This document shows positions 1-28,330 of a stretch of 34,342 nt of DNA, piece by piece; within the stretch, counting starts at the first letter, position 1, and every line of letters starts with the position of its first letter. Position numbers and translations under genes: made by a program. The notes under the pieces are model-generated. The model searched no databases, was not told the DNA's origin, and saw nothing but the letters and a program-made list of their open reading frames with translations. Origin of the DNA: Candidatus Thiovulum karukerense (GTDB lineage: Bacteria > Campylobacterota > Campylobacteria > Campylobacterales > Thiovulaceae); NCBI GenBank assembly GCA_024281215.1, contig JAMJTX010000026.1, positions 1-34,342 of the forward strand. Reading direction: 5' to 3'.

Positions 1-2044
1 TCATTACACTATATATGCTTTTATTAACATCACTTTTAGAAAGCTGATCAATTGAATAGACTTTTGTGATTGAACCAAGTGCTAATTTATTACTAGATTC
101 AACTCTAGTTAGAATATCATCATCTCCATTCTCTTTAATATCAAAGTTTCTATTTTCATCATTAATGGTTGTCATATATACATAATCACCACTCTCTTTA
201 GACTTAAAGTCCCCAAAGGTTAAAGTTGTTGCAATAGTGTTAGCTGTATTTCCATTACTAACTGTTTTTGAAATATAGTTACCATTACCTGTATAGTCAA
301 TATATAGATTTTCATCTGCTCCAAGAGTTGTATCATCAACTCTAAATGTTTTAGTAAATGTATTATCTAAAATATAGAATGGAGTGTTTCCAACAAGAAT
401 AACAGAGTCTTGGAATCCATTGATATCTAAATCAACAATAACATCATTAATAATATCTACTGAGCCACTTGAAAAATCCGTAGTTAAATCTGCAATATTA
501 TCTTCTGTAACATCAATTTCAGTTGTATTTATTTTGACTTTACCTAGTTCAATGGTTCCACTATTCAAAGGTGTATTAGCAGTAGTTCCATCACCATTGT
601 TATTTATAGAAGCTACTAATGTATATTCACCATATCTTGAAGCTACACCAGTATCCGTTAAGTTTGCAACAGCAATATATGAATTTGATGATAGATCATA
701 AGGATCTTGATCTCCAATTGTTCTTACAATATCAAATACATCGTCATCATTACCTCCACTATCTTTATCATAAACCCTAAACCGTCTGTCTGATAAAATA
801 ACTATTTTTCCTGTTAGCTCAGTATCATCGATTGGGAATGCTCTAACATTAAAATTTTTAGACAGCTCTCCCTTTTCAATACCAGAGCTAATTTGATTAT
901 TAATAGCTCTACATACCTCTTGAGGATTTACCCCATTAGCATCAATAGAGTATAAAGTGATGGATATACTCTCTTTACCTGTCTCATCAGTGATAGTAAA
1001 TTCATCATCAACTGCTTGATTAGATAATTTTAATATCAATCCTGTTGATGAGTGTCGAAGATAACCATCTGGAAATGAGAGCATATTCCAGCCACTTGAT
1101 AAGAGAGGGTGTCCGCCATATCGACTAGTATTGTTTCCATCTGAAAGAGGGTAGTAAGTTTTAGAGTATGTTGTAAGAGATATATTTCCATCTCCAAGAA
1201 TTAGACCATGCTGTGTTGTAGCTTCAGTATCGTCATGGAGTTTTACCCAATATGCACTTCCTGCTGTTAACTCTGTAAAATCATTTGAGCTATCAGCTAT
1301 CTCAGAGTAGAAGCTCTCCCAAATAGATCTATTAGAGTCTAGCCGAAATACTTTTATCCAGTCATCACCAACAGTAAGATCATCTCTGTGAGCAGAGTCT
1401 CTATCATAATCCAGAATATCACCAGATTGACCATCTCTCCCTGGATTGTTTGTGAAGTCCATATCTATCAATTTACGAATCTTAAATGTGTAATCAGATG
1501 TAGCCACTTTTAAGGCTGACAGAGTCATTGGATTGTCAGAAGTGTGGGAAGAGTTAAAATAGCCATAATAGACTCTATTATCATTAAGGTCTGTAATAAC
1601 TTTTAAGTGAAACATTTCACCCTCAAGGTTTGCCTGATACTTCACTTTTATATCAGCAGTTCCACTGTTGTCACTATCGATAAATATCTCTCGTCGTGGT
1701 TGGTAGCTATCAATTGAAAAACCATCTCCATTAAATGAGAGAGTAATTGTATTGAAGTCTGTATCTGTCACCTCAAAACCGACTAGATGAGTTGTTGCAT
1801 TATATACAGCTAGAGTTCCACCATCAGCAGTTCCTATATAACTCCCATCGTTAATGCCACCATCAACCTCAGTCCCATAGTGCCAATCCCCGCTCGTTGT
1901 AATATCACCACTTCCAGAACCCTCCATAAAAGCCCCTGGAACACCTATAAGTTTCCACTGGTCGTTAGGCAAAACAACCTCAACAAGATTATTTGCACTT
2001 AGTCCAATAAAAGCTACTAGAGAAAAAAGTCTTAATATCTTCAC
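1..2044 (-). CDS. Large secreted surface protein, C-terminus cut by left edge (paralog of 6168..10229)
   Basis: The frame is open for 681 codons from a GTG at 2044 and still open at base 1, so the gene is 3'-truncated by the window and absent from the ORF track. The start overlaps the preceding stop as GTGA, which points to translational coupling. The N-terminus (VKILRLFSLVAFIGLSA, then NNLVEVV) looks like a Sec signal peptide, so export is expected. The mature part is rich in Asp, Asn, Ser and Thr. It carries aromatic anchors: WKLIGVPG (W30), AYWVKL (W266) and GWNMLSFP (W319). It also has Asp-rich loops such as DSDNSGTADIKV that resemble calcium-binding loops. It aligns with the 1353-aa protein at several anchors (FNVRAFP/FNVRAIP, NTFTKTF/TTYTKVY, NPG..DYDRDS). 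I recognise no catalytic domain. Function is unknown; a cell-surface or matrix role is inferred. Confidence 0.85.
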   Translation of the reverse strand, partial: MKILRLFSLVAFIGLSANNLVEVVLPNDQWKLIGVPGAFMEGSGSGDITTSGDWHYGTEVDGGINDGSYIGTADGGTLAVYNATTHLVGFEVTDTDFNTITLSFNGDGFSIDSYQPRREIFIDSDNSGTADIKVKYQANLEGEMFHLKVITDLNDNRVYYGYFNSSHTSDNPMTLSALKVATSDYTFKIRKLIDMDFTNNPGRDGQSGDILDYDRDSAHRDDLTVGDDWIKVFRLDSNRSIWESFYSEIADSSNDFTELTAGSAYWVKLHDDTEATTQHGLILGDGNISLTTYSKTYYPLSDGNNTSRYGGHPLLSSGWNMLSFPDGYLRHSSTGLILKLSNQAVDDEFTITDETGKESISITLYSIDANGVNPQEVCRAINNQISSGIEKGELSKNFNVRAFPIDDTELTGKIVILSDRRFRVYDKDSGGNDDDVFDIVRTIGDQDPYDLSSNSYIAVANLTDTGVASRYGEYTLVASINNNGDGTTANTPLNSGTIELGKVKINTTEIDVTEDNIADLTTDFSSGSVDIINDVIVDLDINGFQDSVILVGNTPFYILDNTFTKTFRVDDTTLGADENLYIDYTGNGNYISKTVSNGNTANTIATTLTFGDFKSKESGDYVYMTTINDENRNFDIKENGDDDILTRVESSNKLALGSITKVYSIDQLSKSDVNKSIYSVM

Positions 2045-2643
2045 ACACTCTCCCTATCTATATAGTAATCTGTAATCTCTGTATATAGTTCAATTTCGTC
2101 ATATCGGAATATCTTTTCAACTATTGGTTCAAAAAAATCAACCATCTGTTGAGGAATAATAGGAGTTGCAATATAGATAGACTCAATCTTAAATACAGAT
2201 GATATCGTTGCTATTGCTGTCTCCATTCGTAAACCAGTCTCAACTGCTTCATCAACTAAAATAACTTTTTCAACTGTTTCACCTATCTTTAAGTTATCTC
2301 GATTGCCTCGAATAGCTTCAACTCTCGGCATAAGTTTATAGTCATAAATAACATCAATACTATTTAAAAGCATCTCCCGTTCAAGTTGAAAAGCCTCTTT
2401 AAGAACATCGTCAATAATTATAGTTTTAAATTCGCTAACCATAGCTATTTCACAATCAGAGTTCTTTTGGCAAAATACAGGCTCTAAAAATAGTCTTTTA
2501 TTTGGAATTTGAAGATGCTTAGAGAGAATTTTAGCTATCTGCTCCCCACTCTCTGAAATTGCAACAAGAAGCCAATTTTTATCTTCCAACTCCCCGATTG
2601 TTTCTAAGAGTTTTAGTGAAGCATCTTCGATATTTTGAAACAC
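2041..2643 (-). CDS. Phosphoribosyltransferase-like protein
   Basis: This 200-aa protein has the type I phosphoribosyltransferase signature VILVDEAVETGLRMETA in the second half, the loop that binds the 5-phosphate of PRPP. The loop is divergent: DE replaces the common DD, and the usual final Ser/Thr is missing (GLR). Substrate cannot be predicted. It resembles stand-alone COG1926-like PRTases, not Apt, Upp or PyrE. The start is GTG immediately after the TAA of the upstream MCE gene (TAAGTG). A strong ribosome site, GGAGGAGGT, lies inside the last codons of that gene, which supports this start. The stop overlaps the next GTG (GTGA). Being locked between an envelope lipid-transport gene and a secreted protein gene is odd for a nucleotide-salvage enzyme. 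The fold is fairly certain, the role is not. Confidence 0.82.
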   Translation of the reverse strand: MFQNIEDASLKLLETIGELEDKNWLLVAISESGEQIAKILSKHLQIPNKRLFLEPVFCQKNSDCEIAMVSEFKTIIIDDVLKEAFQLEREMLLNSIDVIYDYKLMPRVEAIRGNRDNLKIGETVEKVILVDEAVETGLRMETAIATISSVFKIESIYIATPIIPQQMVDFFEPIVEKIFRYDEIELYTEITDYYIDRESV

Positions 2644-4020
2644 TTATAGACCTCCTCCAGCAGCTCCCATAAATGCTTTAAGATCGTTATCAATAAAGTA
2701 GAACCCAACTCCCATAAATAGCGCAGAGTGACTATTAATTAAGTTTGTCCCACCTACTAAGAGATCGATATGGTCATAGACTCTATATCGCAATGAAGCT
2801 TTTAAATTTGCTCCATCATTTCTGATATCATTTACAGCATTAAAATCAAATGCTTCAAGTGAAAATTTAAGCTTGTCTGCAAAAGCGAAGAAGTCTATAC
2901 CTAAACCACCTGTACTTTCAATCAATCCAGCTCGGAACAACCAATCACCATACCTTTTTCCATACTGTGCAGAGAAGAGAGTCTCTCCATCTTCATGAAG
3001 CTGACTTCCCTTAATTGTTCCATCAGACTTGTACTCATCATAGACAGGAGCATTAACAAGTGAGAAGAGATAGTATGTATTTGGATTTGGAAGATAAGCG
3101 ATATTTGTATATGTTGAGAAAGTCTCATCTCGGAAATTATGCTCAGCCCTCATCGAGAATTGAAGCTCAGATTTTGTTAATGATAAAATAATTTTATCTA
3201 ACTCTTTAATAGTCTCTTCACCCTTAGAAAAGAATCCTTCAACAGAGTCTAAGCTATTTATTAGAGGCTCTTTTGCATCACTAACAGTTCCGTTTAGCTC
3301 TGTTACAAGAATCTGAATTGAATCTAGCACCTCAGGAAGTCGTCTATCTAAATTTGCTCCAACAGAGTGGTATTTATCAAGGGTTCTTTCAAGAGATTCT
3401 ATAACAGCTGGAAGATTTGATGAAGCACTCTCTATATTTGTTACTGTATTTTTTACTCCATCTCTATTCTCTTGAATAACCCCCTTAAGATCTCGGAGGA
3501 TTGTGGCAAGATTAGATATTGCTCCCTCTAACTCATCTCGTCTATCTTGGTTGAGGGTACTTCTAATCTCTTGAGCAAGTTGTCTAAACTCCTCTGATGT
3601 CTGGAAAAAGCTATCACTTGTCTTCTCAAAAGATGCCAACTTTTTATATCTTTTAATAAATGAGCCTTCACCAAGGTAGATTGGTGAGTGACCTCTATTT
3701 ATAGCTACTATTTTACTTCCAAGAAGTGACTCTTGGACAAGTTGCACCTCTGAATCTTTTGGTATCTGATACCCATTTTCAATAAAGAGGTTTAAGACAA
3801 TAAAGTCATCAGCCATTGAGAATGACTCAACCCAACCGATAGAGATACCATTCATCTTAACTTTAGAGTTAATTTCAAGACCAGTTGAATCATCAACAAA
3901 GACCTGAACTCTATACCCCTCTGCATTAACATTTTTAAACTCACTAACTTGAGTTGTCAATAGAAACAGCATTGCCAAACCAAGAACAACGAAAAAACCA
4001 ACTTTTGCCTCTACACTCAT
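2644..4020 (-). CDS. MCE/MlaD-family lipid-transport protein with beta-rich C-terminal domain
   Basis: The protein has 458 aa. Residues about 7-24 form one membrane anchor (VGFFVVLGLAMLFLLT). Residues about 36-115 are an MCE domain, with typical segments VFVDDSTGLEINSKVKMNGI and the LLGSKIVAI strand. Residues about 130-285 are mostly helical and polar, likely the periplasmic coiled needle. Residues about 288-458 alternate polar and aromatic residues in roughly ten short strands (e.g. LKASLRYRVYDHIDLLVGG, ALFMGVGFYFIDNDLKAF) and look like a small outer-membrane beta-barrel. MCE proteins bind phospholipids and span the periplasm between an MlaFE-type ABC transporter and the outer membrane. No mlaE or mlaF lies beside it here; ligA is divergent, 152 bp away. 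The first gene of the probable mce-PRTase-secreted protein operon. MCE assignment is firm, the barrel is inferred from strand pattern. Confidence 0.9.
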   Translation of the reverse strand: MSVEAKVGFFVVLGLAMLFLLTTQVSEFKNVNAEGYRVQVFVDDSTGLEINSKVKMNGISIGWVESFSMADDFIVLNLFIENGYQIPKDSEVQLVQESLLGSKIVAINRGHSPIYLGEGSFIKRYKKLASFEKTSDSFFQTSEEFRQLAQEIRSTLNQDRRDELEGAISNLATILRDLKGVIQENRDGVKNTVTNIESASSNLPAVIESLERTLDKYHSVGANLDRRLPEVLDSIQILVTELNGTVSDAKEPLINSLDSVEGFFSKGEETIKELDKIILSLTKSELQFSMRAEHNFRDETFSTYTNIAYLPNPNTYYLFSLVNAPVYDEYKSDGTIKGSQLHEDGETLFSAQYGKRYGDWLFRAGLIESTGGLGIDFFAFADKLKFSLEAFDFNAVNDIRNDGANLKASLRYRVYDHIDLLVGGTNLINSHSALFMGVGFYFIDNDLKAFMGAAGGGL

Positions 4021-6113
<2,093 letters not shown>

Positions 6114-6167
6114 ACGATTCTTTGACTAGTATATTAATGTAAATAGAGATATAGGGGAGGTTCCGCA

Positions 6168-9100
6168 ATGGCTGGAAAACTAGGTAGGCTACTTATAGCC
6201 TTTATGCTATTCAACACACTCTTATCCGCTGAAAATGATCTGAGTCCAAAGTATGTTCGACTCTTTTCAAATGATAGTAGTGGTGATGGTGTATGGCAGA
6301 TGGTGGGTGTTGCAGGTTTTTATAACAACATCTATGGAGTTGGATTTGATGAAAAAGTAGGGAGTAATGTATATACAGCTTTCTACTGTGATGACAATAG
6401 TGAAGACTCGATTATTAGGGCTAAAGTAGTTAATTCTGAGACTAATGATGACGAGATGAGAAACCGATATTGGTTATTCTCTGTATCTCTCCAGAAGAGT
6501 GTCACAGGATATGAGCCTCTAGTTGTTGATATTGCATCATCTAACTTAAACTGTTCAACAGTCGGTCAATATAATGGTGTTCCATCACTGGAGAAACCAG
6601 TTGAAGAGCCAAATGGAACAGATGTGATGATTAACTTTATTCATGCTTCAAATGTTAACCCAACTGTTGTATTCTCATTAGGCTATGATCTCGATACTGA
6701 GGGGAAAGATATATATAGCATTACTATCGATGATGATGCGACACCTGTTACATTAAGTTCATTGGCAATGGATCAGACAACTCAGACTTACTCATCAATT
6801 ATCTCAAATATGAGTGTAAAAAAGCAGTCAATTGGTAGTATTGTTGATCTATATCTTAATGATAACCCTGGTTTTGGTAGTGCAGATGATAACTCAACAA
6901 ACTATGATAGAGATAGTAGAGAGTTTGTCTCTGTAAATCATCAAGTACCTATTGATGAGAGTAACTTCCTAAGTGATGAGGTAACTCTGACTATATATAG
7001 TTATGAAGATGCTGATGGTGATGATACAGTTGCATCACGAAATAGTTGGCAACTATACAACAACAAACGACCTAGTGCCGAAAACGGATTTAATGAACTT
7101 CAAGCTGGTAGAGGATACTGGATGAAGTATGACTTCTCTGCTGATAGAACATCAACATTTATTCAAACACTAGATCTAAACTCTAGTTGTGGTAGAGGTT
7201 GTGAAAGTAACTTAACTATTAGCATGAATGGTGATCTCAATAGCACTAACTACCAATTTACAGATAGTGATGTTGATTCAATAGTTTCTGTTCTTAATGA
7301 TACTAATGTCTCTAGAAATGGTGTTGCAGAAGTTAATATATCTGCTGTTAAGATAGCAAACAACTCTATCCTTATTCGAGCTATTGCCGGTGCAAAGCCT
7401 ACTCTTAAAGAGGAGAAGGTTGATGGTGTTACAAAAAATATCTTTTTAAATATTAAAAATGCAACTACTGCATTCTCTAATACAGAAGATATTAAAGCCG
7501 GTCTTGTTCTTGGTGATAGTAGTGTTGTATTAACATCTAGTTCCGTCTATCCACAAATTGTAAGAGAGGGTTGGAATCTATTAACTCTGCCAACTTCAAC
7601 AATTCGAGAGAGTGTTACAGGATTAATGATTGACTGGACAGCTCCAGACTTTAATAAACTTCAGATTAGTGATCACTCTGGTGTTAATGTTGTTGATGTT
7701 ATTGATTCAGATAGTAACCTTTTAATGGATCAAGCTAGTCTAAGAGACTCAGCAAGAGCAATTAATCAAGCTATCTATAAAGCTCAAACATCAGGAACTC
7801 TCTCAACTCAGTACTTTAATGTAAGAGCTATTCCAGTAACTGATGCTAATGATGTGAATAAAATTATGTTGATATCTAATGATCGATTCTCTATTGCAGT
7901 TGATAAAACTGGTCATAGTAGTTTTACAGGAAAAGTTTTATCACTAAATGGTAATGATAAAAATATTAGAGATACATCTATTGTATCAAGTGATGCAAAT
8001 TTATCAACATCAACTTATGGAGAGTATGCTCTTGTTTTTGAACCTAACCTCAACTCTCAATTTGTTAAAGATGGTATCGCTTCATTTGAGATTAATGGAC
8101 ATAAAATAGCTATTGCAGCTAATGCAACTCTAAATTCTCTAAAGAATCAAATTAATGGTGCAAATATTGATGTTAATGCATCTGAGATAGACTCAGATAT
8201 AGATGGAACGATGGATAGACTTCTTATAACATCAAGCTCAGTTATATCTATCAGGGATACAACTTATACAAAAGTTTATAAATTTACACCTAATCTTATT
8301 GGTGATGTTACGGTATCTCTTCATAAAGGGACAGATTTAGATGGTGAAGTACTTAATTCAAGAGTTACTGTTGCAAAAGATAAGAATATCTCTACATCAT
8401 CTTACACTCAAAATGGGACTTATCTAGATGGTGAAGTTACAAAGAACTATTATAGTTATATAGTAGATAAAGATGGAAATGGAACAATTACTGGAAGTGA
8501 GACAGAATATATTGTTTTAGTTTCGCAAACTCCTGACCTATATCTCAGAGAGAGTGCAGAGTCAAACAACACAGATGATAGCCTTGAAGAGAACCTCTCT
8601 TATGATAAAAATGTTTCAACAGCCGGAGCAATTTTAGGTGCAATTCACGGTGGAACATTTGCAACTGTTGATCTTGATAGCAATGGAGATATCAATAGTA
8701 GCAAACTTGGTGAAAGAAATGTGACAGCAAACAAGTTTATTACAGATGACCTTTTAGTCTCAAATGCTCTTATTACTCTCTATAATGCATTTGCAAATAA
8801 AGAGACAAAATATGTTCCTACTATGATCATTGGTGGTGAATCAAATGTAGATACTGGTATTATCAAATGGCAGAAACTATCACCTATTCAACAGATTAGT
8901 AAATGGTATAAAGATTACAACCTTTTCCATACTAATAACCAAAAGGGTTACTGGGTATATCTTGATAAGTACGACTCAAATAACAGTCTTGTTAAAGTGT
9001 TGATAGAGGAAGATATCGGTTCTGGTATTGAGGAGAATGAAGTCCCAACCGTTACAAAACAGTATATTAGAAGTTTTGATAATGAGCGCAATACTACAAC

Positions 9101-10229
9101 AAATATGTTTGACCTTGATATATCCGCATTTGTTAAAGGTGTAAAGACAACAACAGATAGTAATGGAGATACAGTAGCAGATGAGAGTAGTCTTTTTGTA
9201 TCAGCTCAACTTGTAGGTGTCTCAGATGCTCTTGAAGCTCTTGAGTTTAAAATGCCTATAAATAGTTCAACTGAGGATTCTGCTCCAACAGTTGATGGAA
9301 TTAGAGAGTTCTCAACAGAGATTAACTACTTTGATGTTGATGGTCTCCATAGAGATATGTTAAGTGGTCTAACTCAATTAACAGGTATTAAAATTACTGC
9401 AACAGATGGGCGACTTGATACAGATGAATATACAATTCCTCTTGATGTAACAAAGCCTAAAAAACCTACTCTTGAGTTTAAGACAACAGAGCCTAGAGAT
9501 ATCTTTATTACAGCTGGTGATGTCAATGATACAGTTAAATATCTCATATTTAAAGATAGAATAGATGATATTAATGGAACTGTTATCGATAGCTCAAATG
9601 GTATAAATATACCATCTAACTTTATTATGGAAGTTAATAGAACAGATGGGGAGAGTGGAGTTGGAGGACTTTGCCAACACCCTACTTTTAGTGGTGACAA
9701 CTTAGAGTATGCTTCTCTTATTGTTCTTGCTCTTGATAACCAAGATGATACTCAAGCAAACTTCTCTGATATGAAACGAATCAACTTCTTACCTATGAGA
9801 GATAGCCATGTTTTAGAGAGTACTTATGCTAATGGTTCTACAACTGAAAGAGACGAAGTACCAACTATCTACAACTCATCTTGTGATAATGACGGTGACT
9901 TAACAGATAGTACAGGTGAAACAATAAATAGTGGGATTAGCTTAAAATCTCTTAATGGAGAAGTTCGTATAGCTTACCGAGGTATTGAGGGTGAAAAGTT
10001 TGCTCAAGATCTACCAAATACAATAGTTGTGGGTGTTGTTGGAAACTCAACAGTAAGAGTTGCTGAGATTAAGTATATTGATAGATATGTTGGTAAAAAC
10101 TTCTATATCTCTTATAACGGAAAGATTTATGGTCAAACTTTCCCAACAACAGCAGATTCTGAAAACTATTTAGAGACACCATATCCATTAAACTTAGTCT
10201 CAAATAGTGGGCAGATAATAGGTGATTAA
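6168..10229 (+). CDS. Giant secreted surface protein (paralog of the gene at 1..2044)
   Basis: This 1353-aa protein starts at an ATG with GGGGAGG 8 bases upstream. Residues 1-21 form a signal peptide (LLIAFMLFNTLLSA, cut before ENDLS). The mature chain is acidic and rich in Asn, Ser and Thr. Aromatic anchors occur as WQMVGVAG (W43), GYWMKYD (W318), GWNLLTLP (W469), KWQKLSP and GYWVYLDKY (W929). EF-hand or dockerin-like loops are visible: DKDGNGTITGSE, DLDSNGDINSSK and DNDGDLTDSTGE, suggesting calcium binding. A cysteine pair, CGRGC, lies near residue 341. Anchors shared with the gene at 1..2044 show paralogy. No enzyme motif or membrane barrel is recognised. It lies 54 bp after ligA and starts a run of four closely spaced envelope genes. 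Adhesin, S-layer-like or matrix role is only inferred. Confidence 0.88.
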   Translation: MAGKLGRLLIAFMLFNTLLSAENDLSPKYVRLFSNDSSGDGVWQMVGVAGFYNNIYGVGFDEKVGSNVYTAFYCDDNSEDSIIRAKVVNSETNDDEMRNRYWLFSVSLQKSVTGYEPLVVDIASSNLNCSTVGQYNGVPSLEKPVEEPNGTDVMINFIHASNVNPTVVFSLGYDLDTEGKDIYSITIDDDATPVTLSSLAMDQTTQTYSSIISNMSVKKQSIGSIVDLYLNDNPGFGSADDNSTNYDRDSREFVSVNHQVPIDESNFLSDEVTLTIYSYEDADGDDTVASRNSWQLYNNKRPSAENGFNELQAGRGYWMKYDFSADRTSTFIQTLDLNSSCGRGCESNLTISMNGDLNSTNYQFTDSDVDSIVSVLNDTNVSRNGVAEVNISAVKIANNSILIRAIAGAKPTLKEEKVDGVTKNIFLNIKNATTAFSNTEDIKAGLVLGDSSVVLTSSSVYPQIVREGWNLLTLPTSTIRESVTGLMIDWTAPDFNKLQISDHSGVNVVDVIDSDSNLLMDQASLRDSARAINQAIYKAQTSGTLSTQYFNVRAIPVTDANDVNKIMLISNDRFSIAVDKTGHSSFTGKVLSLNGNDKNIRDTSIVSSDANLSTSTYGEYALVFEPNLNSQFVKDGIASFEINGHKIAIAANATLNSLKNQINGANIDVNASEIDSDIDGTMDRLLITSSSVISIRDTTYTKVYKFTPNLIGDVTVSLHKGTDLDGEVLNSRVTVAKDKNISTSSYTQNGTYLDGEVTKNYYSYIVDKDGNGTITGSETEYIVLVSQTPDLYLRESAESNNTDDSLEENLSYDKNVSTAGAILGAIHGGTFATVDLDSNGDINSSKLGERNVTANKFITDDLLVSNALITLYNAFANKETKYVPTMIIGGESNVDTGIIKWQKLSPIQQISKWYKDYNLFHTNNQKGYWVYLDKYDSNNSLVKVLIEEDIGSGIEENEVPTVTKQYIRSFDNERNTTTNMFDLDISAFVKGVKTTTDSNGDTVADESSLFVSAQLVGVSDALEALEFKMPINSSTEDSAPTVDGIREFSTEINYFDVDGLHRDMLSGLTQLTGIKITATDGRLDTDEYTIPLDVTKPKKPTLEFKTTEPRDIFITAGDVNDTVKYLIFKDRIDDINGTVIDSSNGINIPSNFIMEVNRTDGESGVGGLCQHPTFSGDNLEYASLIVLALDNQDDTQANFSDMKRINFLPMRDSHVLESTYANGSTTERDEVPTIYNSSCDNDGDLTDSTGETINSGISLKSLNGEVRIAYRGIEGEKFAQDLPNTIVVGVVGNSTVRVAEIKYIDRYVGKNFYISYNGKIYGQTFPTTADSENYLETPYPLNLVSNSGQIIGD

Positions 10230-10259: not shown

Positions 10260-10466
10260 ATGCTAACAGCAATTGCAGCACTACTTGTCGCCTCCCTTGT
10301 GGGGGGGGTTTTTGGCTCTGTGGCAACATACACCTATGTTGATTCATCTGAAGGTAAGTATTGCGATAGAATGAGTGATGAAGTAACTCCTGATGAGGAG
10401 TTCTATAATGAATATGGCACAACAGAAAATTATAACTCTGGAGAAGACGGATACGAAGGGTATTGA
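10260..10466 (+). CDS. Small membrane protein with in-frame G8 tract, possibly phase-variable
   Basis: The 68-aa product has one hydrophobic segment (residues 2-26, LTAIAALLVASLVGGVFGSVATYTYV) and a short acidic tail rich in Glu and Tyr. A good ribosome site (AAGGAG) precedes the ATG. The gene sits between two secreted-protein genes; its stop is one base before the ATG of the next gene, so translation is probably coupled. Codons for VGGV contain eight consecutive G (10301-10308). Losing or gaining one G gives early stops in both alternative frames, which I checked by hand. The hydrophobic segment could be a signal anchor or an uncleaved signal peptide. I recognise no family. Confidence 0.7.
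   Translation: MLTAIAALLVASLVGGVFGSVATYTYVDSSEGKYCDRMSDEVTPDEEFYNEYGTTENYNSGEDGYEGY
10301..10308 (+). repeat. Poly-G tract (G8) inside coding sequence
   Basis: Eight consecutive G in a window that is otherwise AT-rich. In Campylobacter and Helicobacter, G tracts of about 8 or more in surface genes change length by slippage and switch genes on and off. In this copy the frame is open (gtg ggg ggg gtt). G7 would read to a TGA in gaatgagtg, and G9 to a TGA in tgttgattc. Confidence 0.75.
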
Positions 10467-10467
10467 T

Positions 10468-12135
10468 ATGAAGAAGTTCCTGAATATAATTAACTTATCT
10501 CTCTTCTCTATTTTTATACTCCTATCAGGTTGTAATGTAGCTGATAATATCAATAAAGATCTATTGGGTATTGAAGATGAAGATAACAGTAATCCTCCGC
10601 CATCTAATAGTGATGATAGTCAGCCTGATGATAGTAGTGATGATGACAACAGTAATCCTCCACCATCTAACAATGACAACAATCAATCTGATGATAGTAG
10701 TGATGATGACAACAGTAATCCTCCACCATCTAACAATGACAACAATCAACCTGATGATAGTAGCGATGATTCTAATATTACTAGCAATGGTGATTCAAAC
10801 CTTTCAAGCGGTTCTAACGATAATGATACCCAAGAGACTCCTATGGAGTGTGAGAGTGGTTACCATTTAGAGGGTGATACTTGTGTTGTTGATACAGTTA
10901 CTTGCGATGACGATCAAATTCTTCAAAATGGTGAATGTGTTGATGTAACAACTACTTGTTCGACGGGTTATCACTTATCTGGTGGAACTTGTGTGCCTGA
11001 TAGTTCTGGTGGTTTAGATTATGTGGAGGTGGTTGAATTTAACCTTTCACTACCTGAATATAACAACCAGAAAAGTATAGATATTATCATGCCAAAAAAT
11101 CATGAAAAAGTTGTTATTGTTCGTTCAAATCCTAAACAGACTGATATCAACCTAAAGATGCAACTTCATCAATTTACTAACAATAGTGTAGTTGATGCAA
11201 TGCTTCAGGCTGAAGGTTCTCCAATCGTTGCACAGAACTATGATTATGGAGTCATTTTTACATCTGGAGATGCCATAGGTAAAGATGAGTTCCAATTGAC
11301 CCTTGAGAACGATACAGGATTTAGCGATAGTGTATATATCAATATGCAGGTTATTGATCAGATAACTTTAACTAAGGCACGAGATAAATATACTGTTGTA
11401 ACAGATGGAGATGCTGTAAATATAGTTATTGGGGGCTACAATGCTTTAAATAATCCTCTTGAGTTTGAAATTGTTGATTTAACCCAGATTAACAATGAGA
11501 AAAATCTTGCAATTGTTGTTAATGGCTCAAGAATCTTCAATACAGATACAGTTGATGGAGTTGATTTCAACTTTTCAGTTAGAGGTCTTGAAGATTGGAA
11601 AGAGAGTGTTGAGATTAAAGTTAAAGATAGAAGTACAGGAACAACTGAATCACTATTCTTAACTATTGAGTCTGCAAAACGAAGTACTGCTATCTATGAA
11701 GATCTAGAAGAGTGTAATGAAGATTACAATAGAAACTACTTTGAGGCAACTAGTGATAGCAACACTCCTCAATCTCCAGATGGAATATATAGTTCTGACA
11801 ATGCGATATACTTAAAATCGACTTACAATATGGACTATGATATAGGTAATACATTCTCAACTGTTATGGTATTCCATCCAACAAATGGTCAATACTCTTA
11901 TGATAGCTATGCACGAGAGACAATATCTAATTTAGATACTGGAAAAAGGATAGCTACTATATACTATGCAAACTACCTTCAAGGAATGGATTACTTTGTT
12001 AAGTACTACAATGAGGATAAGAACCAAGTTGTATGTGAGAGACGAACATTCCCTGTAATTAGTGCAGCTCCAATTGAAGACTGGGAGAGCGGACTCTATA
12101 CTCCGACTGAGTCAGAAATTCCTTCTATCTTCTAG
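10468..12135 (+). CDS. Repeat-containing surface lipoprotein
   Basis: The ORF track starts at 10393, but that start lies inside the preceding gene. The ATG at 10468 follows the previous TGA by one base, has GAAGGG 7 bases upstream, and gives a perfect lipoprotein signal (MKKFLNIINLSLFSIFILLSGC, lipobox LSGC, Cys22). The product is 555 aa. After the lipid anchor comes an acidic stalk of three 21-residue repeats (DNSNPPPSNNDNNQPDDSSDD). Next come three small cysteine modules (CESGYHLEGDTCV, CDDDQILQNGEC, CSTGYHLSGGTCV). About 380 residues follow that look beta-rich and match nothing I recognise. Asn rather than Asp after the lipidated Cys is compatible with outer-membrane sorting. Likely displayed on the surface with its operon partners; the function is unknown. 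Confidence 0.87.
   Translation: MKKFLNIINLSLFSIFILLSGCNVADNINKDLLGIEDEDNSNPPPSNSDDSQPDDSSDDDNSNPPPSNNDNNQSDDSSDDDNSNPPPSNNDNNQPDDSSDDSNITSNGDSNLSSGSNDNDTQETPMECESGYHLEGDTCVVDTVTCDDDQILQNGECVDVTTTCSTGYHLSGGTCVPDSSGGLDYVEVVEFNLSLPEYNNQKSIDIIMPKNHEKVVIVRSNPKQTDINLKMQLHQFTNNSVVDAMLQAEGSPIVAQNYDYGVIFTSGDAIGKDEFQLTLENDTGFSDSVYINMQVIDQITLTKARDKYTVVTDGDAVNIVIGGYNALNNPLEFEIVDLTQINNEKNLAIVVNGSRIFNTDTVDGVDFNFSVRGLEDWKESVEIKVKDRSTGTTESLFLTIESAKRSTAIYEDLEECNEDYNRNYFEATSDSNTPQSPDGIYSSDNAIYLKSTYNMDYDIGNTFSTVMVFHPTNGQYSYDSYARETISNLDTGKRIATIYYANYLQGMDYFVKYYNEDKNQVVCERRTFPVISAAPIEDWESGLYTPTESEIPSIF
10582..10770 (+). repeat. Three tandem 63-bp repeats encoding an Asp/Ser/Pro stalk
   Basis: Three in-frame units start at 10582, 10645 and 10708. 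Units 2 and 3 differ at only two of 63 bases, while unit 1 is more diverged. Each encodes 21 residues with PPPSN and DDSSDD. The near identity of units 2 and 3 points to recent duplication, so copy number may vary between strains. Confidence 0.9.
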
Positions 12136-22313: not shown

Positions 22314-23888
22314 TTACTGTAAAAGTTTTAAGATATTTTGCTGAACAGCATTAGCTTGAGTTAAAGCATAACTTCCAGATTGAACAAGAATATTCATTTT
22401 TGAGAAGTTAGCCGACTCTTCTGCAAAATCAACATCTCTAATTGTAGATTCAGAAGCTTTAACATTTGTTCTTGTTACAGAGATATTGTTAATTGCTGCC
22501 TCTAGCTCGTTTTGAGCAGAACCGAGTCCAGATCGAATAAGGTCAAGGTGTTTAATAGCAGCATCTGCGATATCCATCACAGCAAATGCACCCTCAAGAG
22601 TTGTTACACCAGCAGTTAGTGGATAGTCAGATTCATCAATATTCTCAACACCAGGGTAGTTTAATGAGTTCTCATTTGCAAAAACACCCATTGCATCAGC
22701 CTGAAGTGAGTTAAATCCGTTAAGAATTCCTCTTAAGTTAAAGTTAGCTTGACTCATAGCACCATCATTAACAGCATTAGCTAAAGCTCCACCATCTTGC
22801 TCAGATACTCTAATATCAACAGCACCGATAGATACCATTGTTAATCTACCACCATTAAAGCTGTTTCCATCAATTCCAAAGAAATCTTGAAAAGTTTTTG
22901 TAATAGGATCACCATTCTCATCTGTTCCAACTGTAACAGGATCACTACTAATCTCAACTGCTCTACCATCAGTTGAAGTTAATTTGAGTCGTCCTCTCTC
23001 ATCAATTGAAGCAAAAACACCAGTCTCATCTCTAGCTTCATTGATTGTTGCAACTAAACGACCATCAGCATCATTTGCTTTAATGTCAGCAAGTTCCCCA
23101 AGCTCAACACCGTTGATAACAAGGTTTTTCACCTCTGCATCAGCTTGAACTGCTTTATCTCCAAGAACCTCAACTTTATATGATGCTCGAACACCAAGAA
23201 TTGAGCTATTTTTATTGATAACTTCTGTTAAAACTCCAAGTCCAGTTCCAGCTCGGCTATCAATCTGAACAGACTCCATTGTAATAGCACCATTTGGAAT
23301 ATGAGTACCTGTAAATGTAAGAGTACTTGTTCCACTTGCTGTAATTGAATTAACAGCTGTTGTCTCCGCTCTAACATGTCCAATTTTATCAGTTGAAGTA
23401 GCTTCGATTGAAGCTTGAACAGTGTTTCGGCTATAAGCACCAATTTGGAATTCTCTATTTACGAAGTTTCCAGATAGAAGCTGTTTTCCGTTGTAGCTTG
23501 TACTTCCAGCGATATTATCAATCTGATTCATAAGAAGAGTAATATCTTTTTGGATAGCTTTTCTTGAAGCACTTGACTGTCCATCTTGTGCAGCTTGAGT
23601 AGCTTTTGTCTTGATTGTATCAAGGATAGCAACTTGCTCAGCCATAGCTTTATCAGCAATCTGAATAATTCCAACAGCCTCATTTGCATTGTGAAGAGCT
23701 TGAGTAAGTGAGTTTGCTTGAGATCGGAGGGAGTCAGCAATCGCCATACCTGAAGAATCATCAGCAGCTTTATTAATTTTAAGACCTGAGCTTAATCTTT
23801 CGAGAGAGCTACTAAGACCCTTGTTATTTAAGTTTGCTTGAGTAGATGCAATCATGGCAGCAGTATTCGTATTAACAATAAAACCCAT
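22314..23888 (-). CDS. flaA: Flagellin
   Basis: The major filament subunit, 524 aa. The N-terminal D0/D1 region (GFIVNTNTAAMIASTQANLNN, LSSGLKINKAADDSSGMAIAD) and the C-terminal D1/D0 (RDVDFAEESANFSKMNILVQSG, ANAVQQNILKLLQ) are complete. The variable centre, about 170-440, is Asp/Gly/Thr-rich. The segment KAMAEQVAILDTIKTKATQAAQDGQ is the Campylobacterota form of the D1 region that in other bacteria is recognised by TLR5, so this flagellin is expected to escape that receptor. The ribosome site AGAGGAAA precedes the ATG, and a sigma-28-like promoter lies upstream. flaA versus flaB cannot be told apart without the rest of the genome. Confidence 0.97.
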   Translation of the reverse strand: MGFIVNTNTAAMIASTQANLNNKGLSSSLERLSSGLKINKAADDSSGMAIADSLRSQANSLTQALHNANEAVGIIQIADKAMAEQVAILDTIKTKATQAAQDGQSSASRKAIQKDITLLMNQIDNIAGSTSYNGKQLLSGNFVNREFQIGAYSRNTVQASIEATSTDKIGHVRAETTAVNSITASGTSTLTFTGTHIPNGAITMESVQIDSRAGTGLGVLTEVINKNSSILGVRASYKVEVLGDKAVQADAEVKNLVINGVELGELADIKANDADGRLVATINEARDETGVFASIDERGRLKLTSTDGRAVEISSDPVTVGTDENGDPITKTFQDFFGIDGNSFNGGRLTMVSIGAVDIRVSEQDGGALANAVNDGAMSQANFNLRGILNGFNSLQADAMGVFANENSLNYPGVENIDESDYPLTAGVTTLEGAFAVMDIADAAIKHLDLIRSGLGSAQNELEAAINNISVTRTNVKASESTIRDVDFAEESANFSKMNILVQSGSYALTQANAVQQNILKLLQ

Positions 23889-26479: not shown

Positions 26480-28330
26480 CTAAATGTAATTGACAAGAGA
26501 TAGACCCTGCACTCTTGCGATACTCTGAAGCATAGCTTGATAGTTGAGACTAAGAGCTTGAAAATATGCTGATGTCTCTGCAAAATCTGTATTGATAACA
26601 TCGTTTTTAGTTATCTGCATATTAAGAGTTAGAGCCTCTGCCCTATCAATTGTATATTCAATATTCTGGAGTTGAGCTCCACTTCTTGATCTCTCTTTAA
26701 TGACATGGTCAATAATATGTGTTAAATTATCGAGAGAACCTTGAACACCTCTATTTCCTTCAAAACCATCTCGCTCACCATCTGGATGGAAGAGATCCTC
26801 TTGAACGGCATCGATTGCCATATCTATCGCTTCAAAAATATCGACTGACGGTCGGTCAAGGTCAATCGCCTTATTTGAGTTAAAAGCGAGTGGAGAACCA
26901 ATATCTGTTGAGAAGTCATGAACACTCTCATCAAACATTGAAAACTCCATATCTGTTACCGATGAGGTTAAATCCATTATCTCAAACTCTCCACGGTGGT
27001 TCAGTTTCACATCAACAAGCTCTTCTGATTCGAGAACAGCACTCTCAAAATCACCAACTTCAACACCAGACAGAGCTATTCCCATCACCTCTGTCAGTTG
27101 TTGATATGAGAAGCTCTCCGCTCCACCACCAAGTTCAAATGTTGCTCCGTTAATCGATACAGCTGTTGTCTCCTCTCCAAAAGTTAATGAAGCACTCATC
27201 TCTTCACCGCTAACTGTTTTTCCCTCAATATTGATGGTTCGATTTAGGAGGGAGTCTGTTGCAACTTCGCTCAAGGTTGTTCGAGCTGTTGCAAAACCAC
27301 TATCTGGAGATATAAACTGCTGAATATTATTTGTTAGGAAGTTTCCATCTTTTTTAAACTGAAGACTCTCACCAACAGTTGCTTCAGCATCTCCACTCTT
27401 CACAAACTCTATTGACTCGCTCTCAGATAGTTCTGAAATATCATTAACATCTTTTGTTCCAGCGACCATATGGAAATTTAGCTTTGCATTACCGCTCTTA
27501 TTGTCTTGAATAATAAATTGACCATTATTTGATAGTTCAACGGTCACCTCATCTTTAAAGACTAGACGAATCTCCTCTGCCAAATCCTCGACTTTAATTT
27601 GAGATGGATCTCCAACTTGAAACTTATGCTTAAAGCCACTACCATCTGGTCTAGTTCCACTCATATAAAATGTTGTTGATTCACTCTTACCAGTTAAATC
27701 ATAGATAGAGTCTTCAGCTTGGATATAGGCATGTCTCGATGGAATCTCTTGAAGAGCAGATTGATTCAACTTTCGCATATTTGTAGAGACTCGACTCTTA
27801 ATATCTCGGTCATATCCTAAAAATAGAGATGCTCCATCAATACTATACTCTTGACTCTGAAATCTATCTGTTCGGATAGTTAGCTTCTCTCCATTGCCTT
27901 GGTAGTTCCCTTTAATATCAATAGGTGGTTGTTTATTATCAGTTCCACCAAATATATACTCTCCATTTACTTTTGTATTTGCAAGATGTATCATTGATGA
28001 CTTAATAGCTTTCAACTCTTTCACAAGAGCCTCTCGGCTTGTTGTAGAGTGGTTACTTCCTGCATAAGCCAACATTTTAACTTTAAAGTTTTCCATCGTC
28101 TCTGTCATAGAGTTGAGAGATGTGTCTGTATAGATTGCAAACGATTTTGCACTCTCTGCACTCTCTTGAAGCTGTTTTGATAAATTTATATCTGTATCTA
28201 AATCAATTGTCTTTTTAAAGGTTGAAGAGTCTTCATACCCTTGAGATATCTTATTACCTGTACTAATCTGTTTTGAGACTCTGTTAAGTTCTCCCTGAAG
28301 AACTGAACTATAATTTGATGAAATATTCAC
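26480..28330 (-). CDS. flgL: Flagellar hook-filament junction protein FlgL
   Basis: Joins hook to filament together with FlgK. The 616-aa protein has flagellin-like helical ends. The N-terminal part is NYSSVLQGELNRVSKQISTGNKISQGYED, with VNGEYIFGGTDNKQPPI as the family's IFxGT motif. The C-terminal part is INTDFAETSAYFQALSLNYQAMLQSIARVQGLSLVNYI. The central domain is long, as in other Campylobacterota FlgL and unlike the ~317-aa enteric form. GTG start with AGGAG 5 bases upstream. A GCCGATTT box in the upstream gap suggests sigma-28 control. It lies apart from flgK and the rest of the hook genes. Confidence 0.93.
   Translation of the reverse strand: MNISSNYSSVLQGELNRVSKQISTGNKISQGYEDSSTFKKTIDLDTDINLSKQLQESAESAKSFAIYTDTSLNSMTETMENFKVKMLAYAGSNHSTTSREALVKELKAIKSSMIHLANTKVNGEYIFGGTDNKQPPIDIKGNYQGNGEKLTIRTDRFQSQEYSIDGASLFLGYDRDIKSRVSTNMRKLNQSALQEIPSRHAYIQAEDSIYDLTGKSESTTFYMSGTRPDGSGFKHKFQVGDPSQIKVEDLAEEIRLVFKDEVTVELSNNGQFIIQDNKSGNAKLNFHMVAGTKDVNDISELSESESIEFVKSGDAEATVGESLQFKKDGNFLTNNIQQFISPDSGFATARTTLSEVATDSLLNRTINIEGKTVSGEEMSASLTFGEETTAVSINGATFELGGGAESFSYQQLTEVMGIALSGVEVGDFESAVLESEELVDVKLNHRGEFEIMDLTSSVTDMEFSMFDESVHDFSTDIGSPLAFNSNKAIDLDRPSVDIFEAIDMAIDAVQEDLFHPDGERDGFEGNRGVQGSLDNLTHIIDHVIKERSRSGAQLQNIEYTIDRAEALTLNMQITKNDVINTDFAETSAYFQALSLNYQAMLQSIARVQGLSLVNYI

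Follow-up and report, generated by a model that had tools for sequence, protein, structure and literature searches.

The window analyzed here is a 34,342-nucleotide stretch of DNA that makes up the entire contig C26 of Candidatus Thiovulum karukerense (genome G000; 1.87 Mb in 191 contigs). It encodes two giant exported proteins, P1 and P2, whose genes point away from each other in separate gene rows. Sequence comparison indicates that P1 and P2 are ancient relatives within one widespread, unnamed family and that they are built of the same modules. Its members, about 870-1,480 residues long, are modular, acidic, and rich in beta structure, and in this analysis they were found in one order of the Campylobacterota only. 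Among the relatives found, the closest named one was Campylobacterales isolate UWMA-0117.

Relationship of P1 and P2 and extent of the family

We compared P1 and P2 directly by BLASTP, which aligned the GWN...TKV region (P1 314-575; E=1e-15 with compositional adjustment) and the NPG...GYW region (P1 172-268; E=3e-6). A profile of five P1 orthologs aligned with a profile of five P2 orthologs over 879 columns (hhalign probability 100, E=6.8e-44). Because of these pairwise and profile-profile E-values, we attribute the likeness to homology rather than to scattered short matches. An earlier note, made from the window alone, had based the relationship on six ordered anchor pairs; all were found in the translations (6/6), in the same order in P1 and P2, and its placement of the genes as facing away in different operons agrees with their opposite strands and separate gene rows. 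Overall P1-P2 identity is low and both proteins are rich in N/S/T/D, as expected of resemblance by chance or low-complexity matching, but that explanation is already refuted by the E-values above and by the end-to-end alignment of 20-35 homologs, in which W/G/Y positions are invariant. A lack of any common relation beyond short low-complexity matches is thereby excluded at the profile level, not by structure.

The P1 gene is cut by the edge of the window. It had been described as invisible to the open reading frame (ORF) track, which is real, but the cause is merely contig truncation, window base 1 being the end of C26. The C terminus had been expected to the left of the window, and we located the remainder of P1 on contig C75 (3094-5106, minus strand). 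The P1 ortholog L013:7995-11963 (1322 amino acids [aa], 51% identical) matches C75:3097-5034 with its C-terminal half (53% identical, E=3e-182). Bases 1-19 of the window are the last 19 nt of C75 (L128 5088-5106), an exact in-frame overlap (SIYSVM), and the reading frame continues across the join (..NKSIYSVM / SIYSVMIYSDE..). C26 and C75 adjoin in the genome. Since the join is in frame, P1 has about 1,346 aa, nearly the length of P2 (1,353). The gene that follows P1 on C75 (447 aa) has a size and start matching those of the gene at the same place in L013 (449 aa).

The paralog search that the earlier note had called for identified four paralogs in the genome: P1, P2, P3 (C163, 1267 aa), and P4 (C123, 875 aa). 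Two further matches, on C185 (E=0.008) and C128 (E=0.10), were unsupported and were dropped. On the family profile (1111 positions), P2 covers positions 1-1109 (E=1.5e-257) and P1 covers 8-656, plus 629-1093 on C75; both are rows of this profile, and the independent evidence for their relationship is the BLASTP and hhalign comparison. Orthologs of P1 and P2 are present in 5/5 genomes of the taxonomic family. Across the order, 28/399 genomes gave matches, and full-length homologs span several of its families (f1, f8, f15, f17, f5, and f22). A phylum-wide draw of 397 genomes contained nine matching genomes, 9/9 in the same order.

In a maximum-likelihood tree (35 sequences, midpoint rooting only), P1 and P2 each formed a clade with all five family genomes (100/100 for both), while P1 and P3 grouped together (100/99), as did P2 and P4 (91/94). 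Since each clade holds all five genomes, the duplication predates the taxonomic family, in agreement with the old duplication suspected earlier. In G003, the P2 and P3 orthologs (L028:4420-8384 and L029:3989-7897) each consist of two ORFs in near-continuous register, reflecting frameshifts or sequencing errors.

The view of a large exported family assignable to no known one was also borne out. Both proteins carry predicted signal peptides, scans of the giants against Pfam, NCBIfam, and PHROGs gave no family reaching its cut-off, and no PDB sequence was significantly similar to the family profile. Literature searches on the family found nothing relevant, and a plasmid tblastn search was negative.

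Nested domains in the giants

The order of parts in the giants is a signal peptide, two split GW...GYWVK domains, an immunoglobulin-like (Ig-like) stretch, and a C-terminal domain (Table 1). Simple tandem GW...GYWVK proteins, for which no Pfam model was found, occur in G027 (1787 aa) and in G030 and G367 (474-1916 aa). In these, two uninterrupted domains of ~75-80 aa directly follow the signal peptide, each starting GWN(L/A)xG and ending DF..l..GkGYWvK. The giants likewise have two GW domains, with a GWN(L/M)xx(G/S) start and the same end; unlike the simple proteins, their GW domains carry 100-400-residue insertions, and they have extra C-terminal domains.

We used column-shuffled profiles as controls for the domain comparisons. 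Both GYWVK regions of the giants were matched by the simple GW profile, with E=9e-12 for the first and a probability of 83 (E=9e-6) for the second (NLF..kGYWVY); the ends of GW domains 1 and 2 of the giants also matched each other (probability 87, E=4e-6). In each case, 0/100 shuffles reached the score. The family profile also matches G027 (E=5.7e-8). Since no shuffle reached the scores of the three domain comparisons, the giants contain two GW domains, each of them split. From the order and the motifs, we infer that the two halves would close as a single domain across the insertion.

Domain B (pattern I.Y...Y.GK.FYI.YNG.LY.G.F) occurs as the C-terminal domain and as the insertion in GW domain 1, and the two copies matched each other with a probability of 95 (E=2e-8; 0/150 shuffles). 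Searches of the domain profiles against PDB sequences gave chance-level or weak matches only (Prp8, titin, and HasR).

The insertion in GW domain 2 consists of three modules with the succession strands, "IN" helix, and "v.a...d...iliS..F.i.d". Flagellin_IN (PF07196) was the only Pfam family matched in >2/30 members (4/30, best E=0.0016); its best member reached 19.0 bits against a curated cut-off of 22.7, and P1 and P2 themselves gave no match. Taken alone, the repetition among the modules is not significant. An AlphaFold2 (AF2) model of P1 residues 308-448, built from three sequences, showed strands-helix-strands (predicted local distance difference test [pLDDT] score of 69, predicted template modeling score of 0.67). 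Foldseek searches with it against PDB and viral libraries found nothing under E=0.001, the top folds including phage tail nozzle proteins, Helicobacter pylori FliD, and CbpD, none significant. The sole match of a whole-profile PDB search was GbpA 174-275 (E=0.69). GbpA domain 2 is reported to be most like a flagellin, and GbpA domains 2-3 are reported to attach to the bacterial surface (PMC3257281). Given this flagellin-like domain, the Flagellin_IN, GbpA, and FliD/nozzle/CbpD signs are weak yet mutually consistent.

We therefore use the tentative label "IN-like" and do not treat the modules as Flagellin_IN family members. Like the Flagellin_IN inserts of FlgL, FliD, and flagellin, they may be beta-alpha-beta modules with an IN helix, and the predicted strand/helix order is compatible; unlike those, they are inserted in another domain, in proteins that have signal peptides and no flagellin helical-domain families.

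Table 1. Features of P1, P2, and neighboring genes. Positions refer to the window unless given as residues.
Feature	Position	Strand	Basis or remark
P1 gene row	mce/MlaD-PRTase-P1	-	
P2 gene row	ligA-P2	+	
P1, giant exported protein	2..2044	-	first 681 codons; rest on C75 (665 codons more)
P1 Sec-type signal peptide, residues 1-17, ..GLSA/NN	1994..2044	-	translation; orthologs same position
P1 N-terminal domain B copy (IKVKYQANLEGEMFHLKV..YYGYFNSS)	1511..1693	-	inserted in GW domain 1
P1 GW domain 1 end (..WESF..NDFTELTAGSAYWVKL)	1229..1360	-	hhalign vs simple tandem GW domains
P1 GW domain 2 start (GWNMLSFPDG) and IN-like module 1	755..1105	-	AF2 of residues 308-448
P1 IN-like module 2 (..TFTKTF)	350..652	-	weak internal repeat; family alignment
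P1 IN-like module 3	125..349	-	equivalent region of the homolog X_G156: Pfam Flagellin_IN E=0.0016, below cut-off
P1 anchors	residues: WKLIGVPG 30, NPG..DYDRDS 201-216, AYWVKL 264, GWNMLSFP 318, FNVRAFP 398, TFTKTF 562	-	
Phosphoribosyltransferase-like (PRTase) gene upstream of P1	2041..2643	-	PF00156 E=1.3e-5, slightly under cut-off
mce/MlaD gene, first of P1 gene row	2644..4020	-	PF02470 E=1.6e-13
ligA (NAD-dependent DNA ligase), upstream of P2	4173..6113	+	PF01653 E=5e-79
P2, giant exported protein, 1353 aa	6168..10229	+	
P2 signal peptide, residues 1-21, ..TLLSA/EN	6168..6230	+	translation
P2 region aligned with N-terminal domain B copy	6498..6812	+	family alignment; divergent in P2
P2 GW domain 1 end (..GFNELQAGRGYWMKY)	6975..7133	+	
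P2 GW domain 2 start (GWNLLTLP) and IN-like module 1	7560..7967	+	
P2 IN-like module 2 (..TYTKVY)	7980..8297	+	
P2 GW domain 2 end (W..LSP..YNLF...QKGYWVYLD)	8805..8972	+	
P2 Ig-like stretch	9000..9497	+	inferred from pattern; PDB profile matches weak, titin E=0.04
P2 C-terminal domain B (YVGKNFYISYNGKIYGQTF)	9840..10226	+	
P2 anchors	residues: WQMVGVAG 43, NPG..NYDRDS 233 on, GYWMKY 316, GWNLLTLP 468, FNVRAIP 550, TYTKVY 699	+	
Lipoprotein LB, LLSGC lipobox	10468..12135	+	ORF opens at 10393
PMP-repeat protein, 992 aa	12154..15132	+	Chlam_PMP E=3e-18, POMP_repeat E=3e-27

Gene neighborhoods and lipoprotein partners

The order ligA-P2-LB-PMP was found in 4/4 genomes whose contig shows it (G000, G001, G002, and G003); in G004, LB lies beside P2 and the contig then ends. 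The order LA-LB-giant recurs in ten loci of three other families (f15, f5, and f22), LA being lipoproteins of ~650 aa with Big_2 Ig-like domains and LB lipoproteins of 300-570 aa. P1 and P2 are neighbors in the window, an arrangement that is not conserved: ~14 kb separates them in G003, and G002 and G004 have them on separate contigs.

By BLASTP, the LB proteins of f1 are unlike those of f15/f5/f22. Profiles of both LB types nevertheless matched the C-terminal domain of the giants, in the same register and above 150/150 shuffles, with single-comparison E-values of 0.002-0.007. The C-terminal domain of the window LB (about 11710-12072) matches the giant C terminus (0/150 shuffles), as does, above shuffles, a 302-aa protein beside the G281 giant; LA and PMP controls did not match this domain. 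LB and the giants thus have a C-terminal domain in common, well supported by the controls though not overwhelmingly so, the E-values being modest. LB also contains a 63-bp in-frame tandem repeat (3.1 copies, 10576-10770), which encodes a SNPPPSNNDNNQPDDSSDD-type linker.

The PMP-repeat protein next to LB resembles Chlamydia-type PMP proteins in its Chlam_PMP/POMP repeats, which do not occur in P1 or P2. Unlike those proteins, it has no autotransporter barrel match, and its last ~68 residues are GW-like (GWSLLG...NAGIWLYK; 0/100 shuffles).

Several other genes were observed near members of the family or near GW-domain proteins. A small exported Cys-containing protein (RPPVPDVGVAEEKRQILQSCKVP; PPVPD-type) often follows the f15 giant (L105:8855-9250, L104:390-821, and L099:9311-9703), and the copy scanned had no Pfam match. 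A small lipoprotein ending ..PP(R/K)LPDLSIG.. lies after the G002 P2 gene row (L052:583-1104) and near P4 (L011:8885-9463). G367 (L090 and L091) has tandem GW-domain proteins (778 and 1916 aa) that directly adjoin DUF1501-like proteins with twin-arginine translocation signals, and a DUF1501-like gene lies near a secretin on C77 of the T. karukerense genome (L135:1145-2707). Two type IV pilin-like genes are located near P3 (L009, C163, 5509-6606), with one small gene between. A link to type IV pili, considered for this pseudopilin-like pair and for one near G002 P1, was dropped, as it was unseen at the P3 loci of G001, G003, and G004.

Export, location, and possible function

We tentatively propose, with a confidence somewhat short of even, that the giants are exported surface scaffold or adhesin-like proteins that work with lipoprotein partners. 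After Sec export, they would cross the outer membrane or be retained there, possibly through machinery of the type II secretion system (T2SS) or type IV pilus (T4P) type. The genome encodes two secretins, one of which adjoins a gene assigned by eye as a GspE/PilB-type ATPase, and a T2SS/T4P-type route is therefore possible. The giants would then assemble with the lipoprotein as an anchor via shared domains, and P2 additionally with the PMP beta-helix protein, to build a scaffold or adhesin-like layer on the cell surface. The several paralogs per genome would serve different partners or conditions.

P1 and P2 have low pI values (4.3-4.4) and consist of 27-28% N/S/T. Ortholog identity is 33-53% for P1, P2, and LB, 52-67% for ligA, mce, and PMP, and 44-49% for the PRTase. 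The slightly faster divergence of P1, P2, and LB appears compatible with surface exposure, though the PRTase also diverges fast. Domain B sits in the giants, again inside the giants, and on lipoproteins. A bolder version of the proposal, which we hold to be unlikely, is that giants and lipoproteins form an undescribed outer-surface assembly of Campylobacterota, in which domain B would couple or sort and the split GW domains would display flagellin-like insertions outward.

Several observations weigh against a surface scaffold. The IN-like and Ig-like assignments fall below curated cut-offs, and no confident whole-protein structure was obtained, the AF2 model of the whole P1 fragment (three sequences) having been discarded at a pLDDT of 34. 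In the loci read, no LB-type lipoprotein directly adjoins P1, P3, or P4. A strong terminator-like hairpin (10290-10309) lies in the P2-LB gap although the gene order is conserved, so that P2 and LB may be separate transcripts. Furthermore, the giants showed neither an outer-membrane transporter or autotransporter barrel nor any known sorting domain, which makes a periplasmic site possible. These negatives comprise the autotransporter/type V C-terminal beta-barrel (no Pfam/NCBIfam match in the giants or the PMP neighbor), the type IX secretion system C-terminal sorting domain (no NCBIfam match at E<0.1 in P1, P2, and homologs, presuming that the library holds sorting-domain models), and SLH or other curated S-layer domains (Pfam, 0/30 members).

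Alternatively, the giants could be secreted proteins that bind glycans or polymers, or cryptic enzymes, the GW and B domains serving as carbohydrate-binding modules that capture or hold extracellular material instead of building a surface layer. Aromatic residues are plentiful in the GW domains, and the closest, though weak, matches of the IN-like region are GbpA domain 2 and CbpD (Foldseek E=0.15), both from chitin-binding multidomain proteins. However, these matches are not significant, they concern the surface-binding module of GbpA and not its chitin-binding domains (PMC3257281), and the giants lack a lytic polysaccharide monooxygenase or chitin-binding domain. With Pfam catalytic or carbohydrate-binding module families in 0/30 members, we judge this explanation improbable, though not negligible.

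The mce-PRTase-P1 order, present in G000, G003, and G004, would fit giants acting as periplasmic or outer-membrane biogenesis factors, with P1 and its MlaD/Mce neighbor in lipid transport. The same order is missing in G001 and G002, however, P2, P3, P4, and homologs elsewhere sit in other contexts, and the patchy spread over the order is unlike that of a core envelope function; such a role seems to us quite doubtful.

We regard as very unlikely that the giants are flagellum-associated (sheath, cap, or filament decoration) via flagellin-IN modules. The IN-like modules and the flagellin and FlgL-like genes in the window (22314-23888 and 26480-28330) suit this idea, but the giants carry Sec signal peptides, whereas axial flagellar proteins do not. 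Moreover, no flagellin N/C helical-domain family was matched (Pfam, 30 members), and the giants of most relatives are not beside flagellar genes.

It is hardly credible that the giants are polymorphic or contact-dependent toxins or delivery proteins: they are large, exported, and neighbored by lipoproteins, and the PMP neighbor has one weak NCBIfam match (SAR2788, below cut-off), but their C terminus is a conserved domain rather than a variable tip, they have no toxin family match in Pfam or NCBIfam, and their genes are not followed by a small immunity-like one.

Together, these analyses confirm that the family is real and unnamed and that its nested architecture is unusual, and from them we tentatively infer a function as a surface scaffold or adhesin-like protein. 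T. karukerense devotes four paralogs of 875-1,353 aa, ~14 kb of its 1.87 Mb, to a family unknown to the searched domain libraries. With its anatomy described, conserved gene sets, and a C-terminal domain that recurs in lipoproteins, what would be annotated as "hypothetical protein" becomes a surface assembly open to testing, and profile models of the family would allow its annotation across the order.

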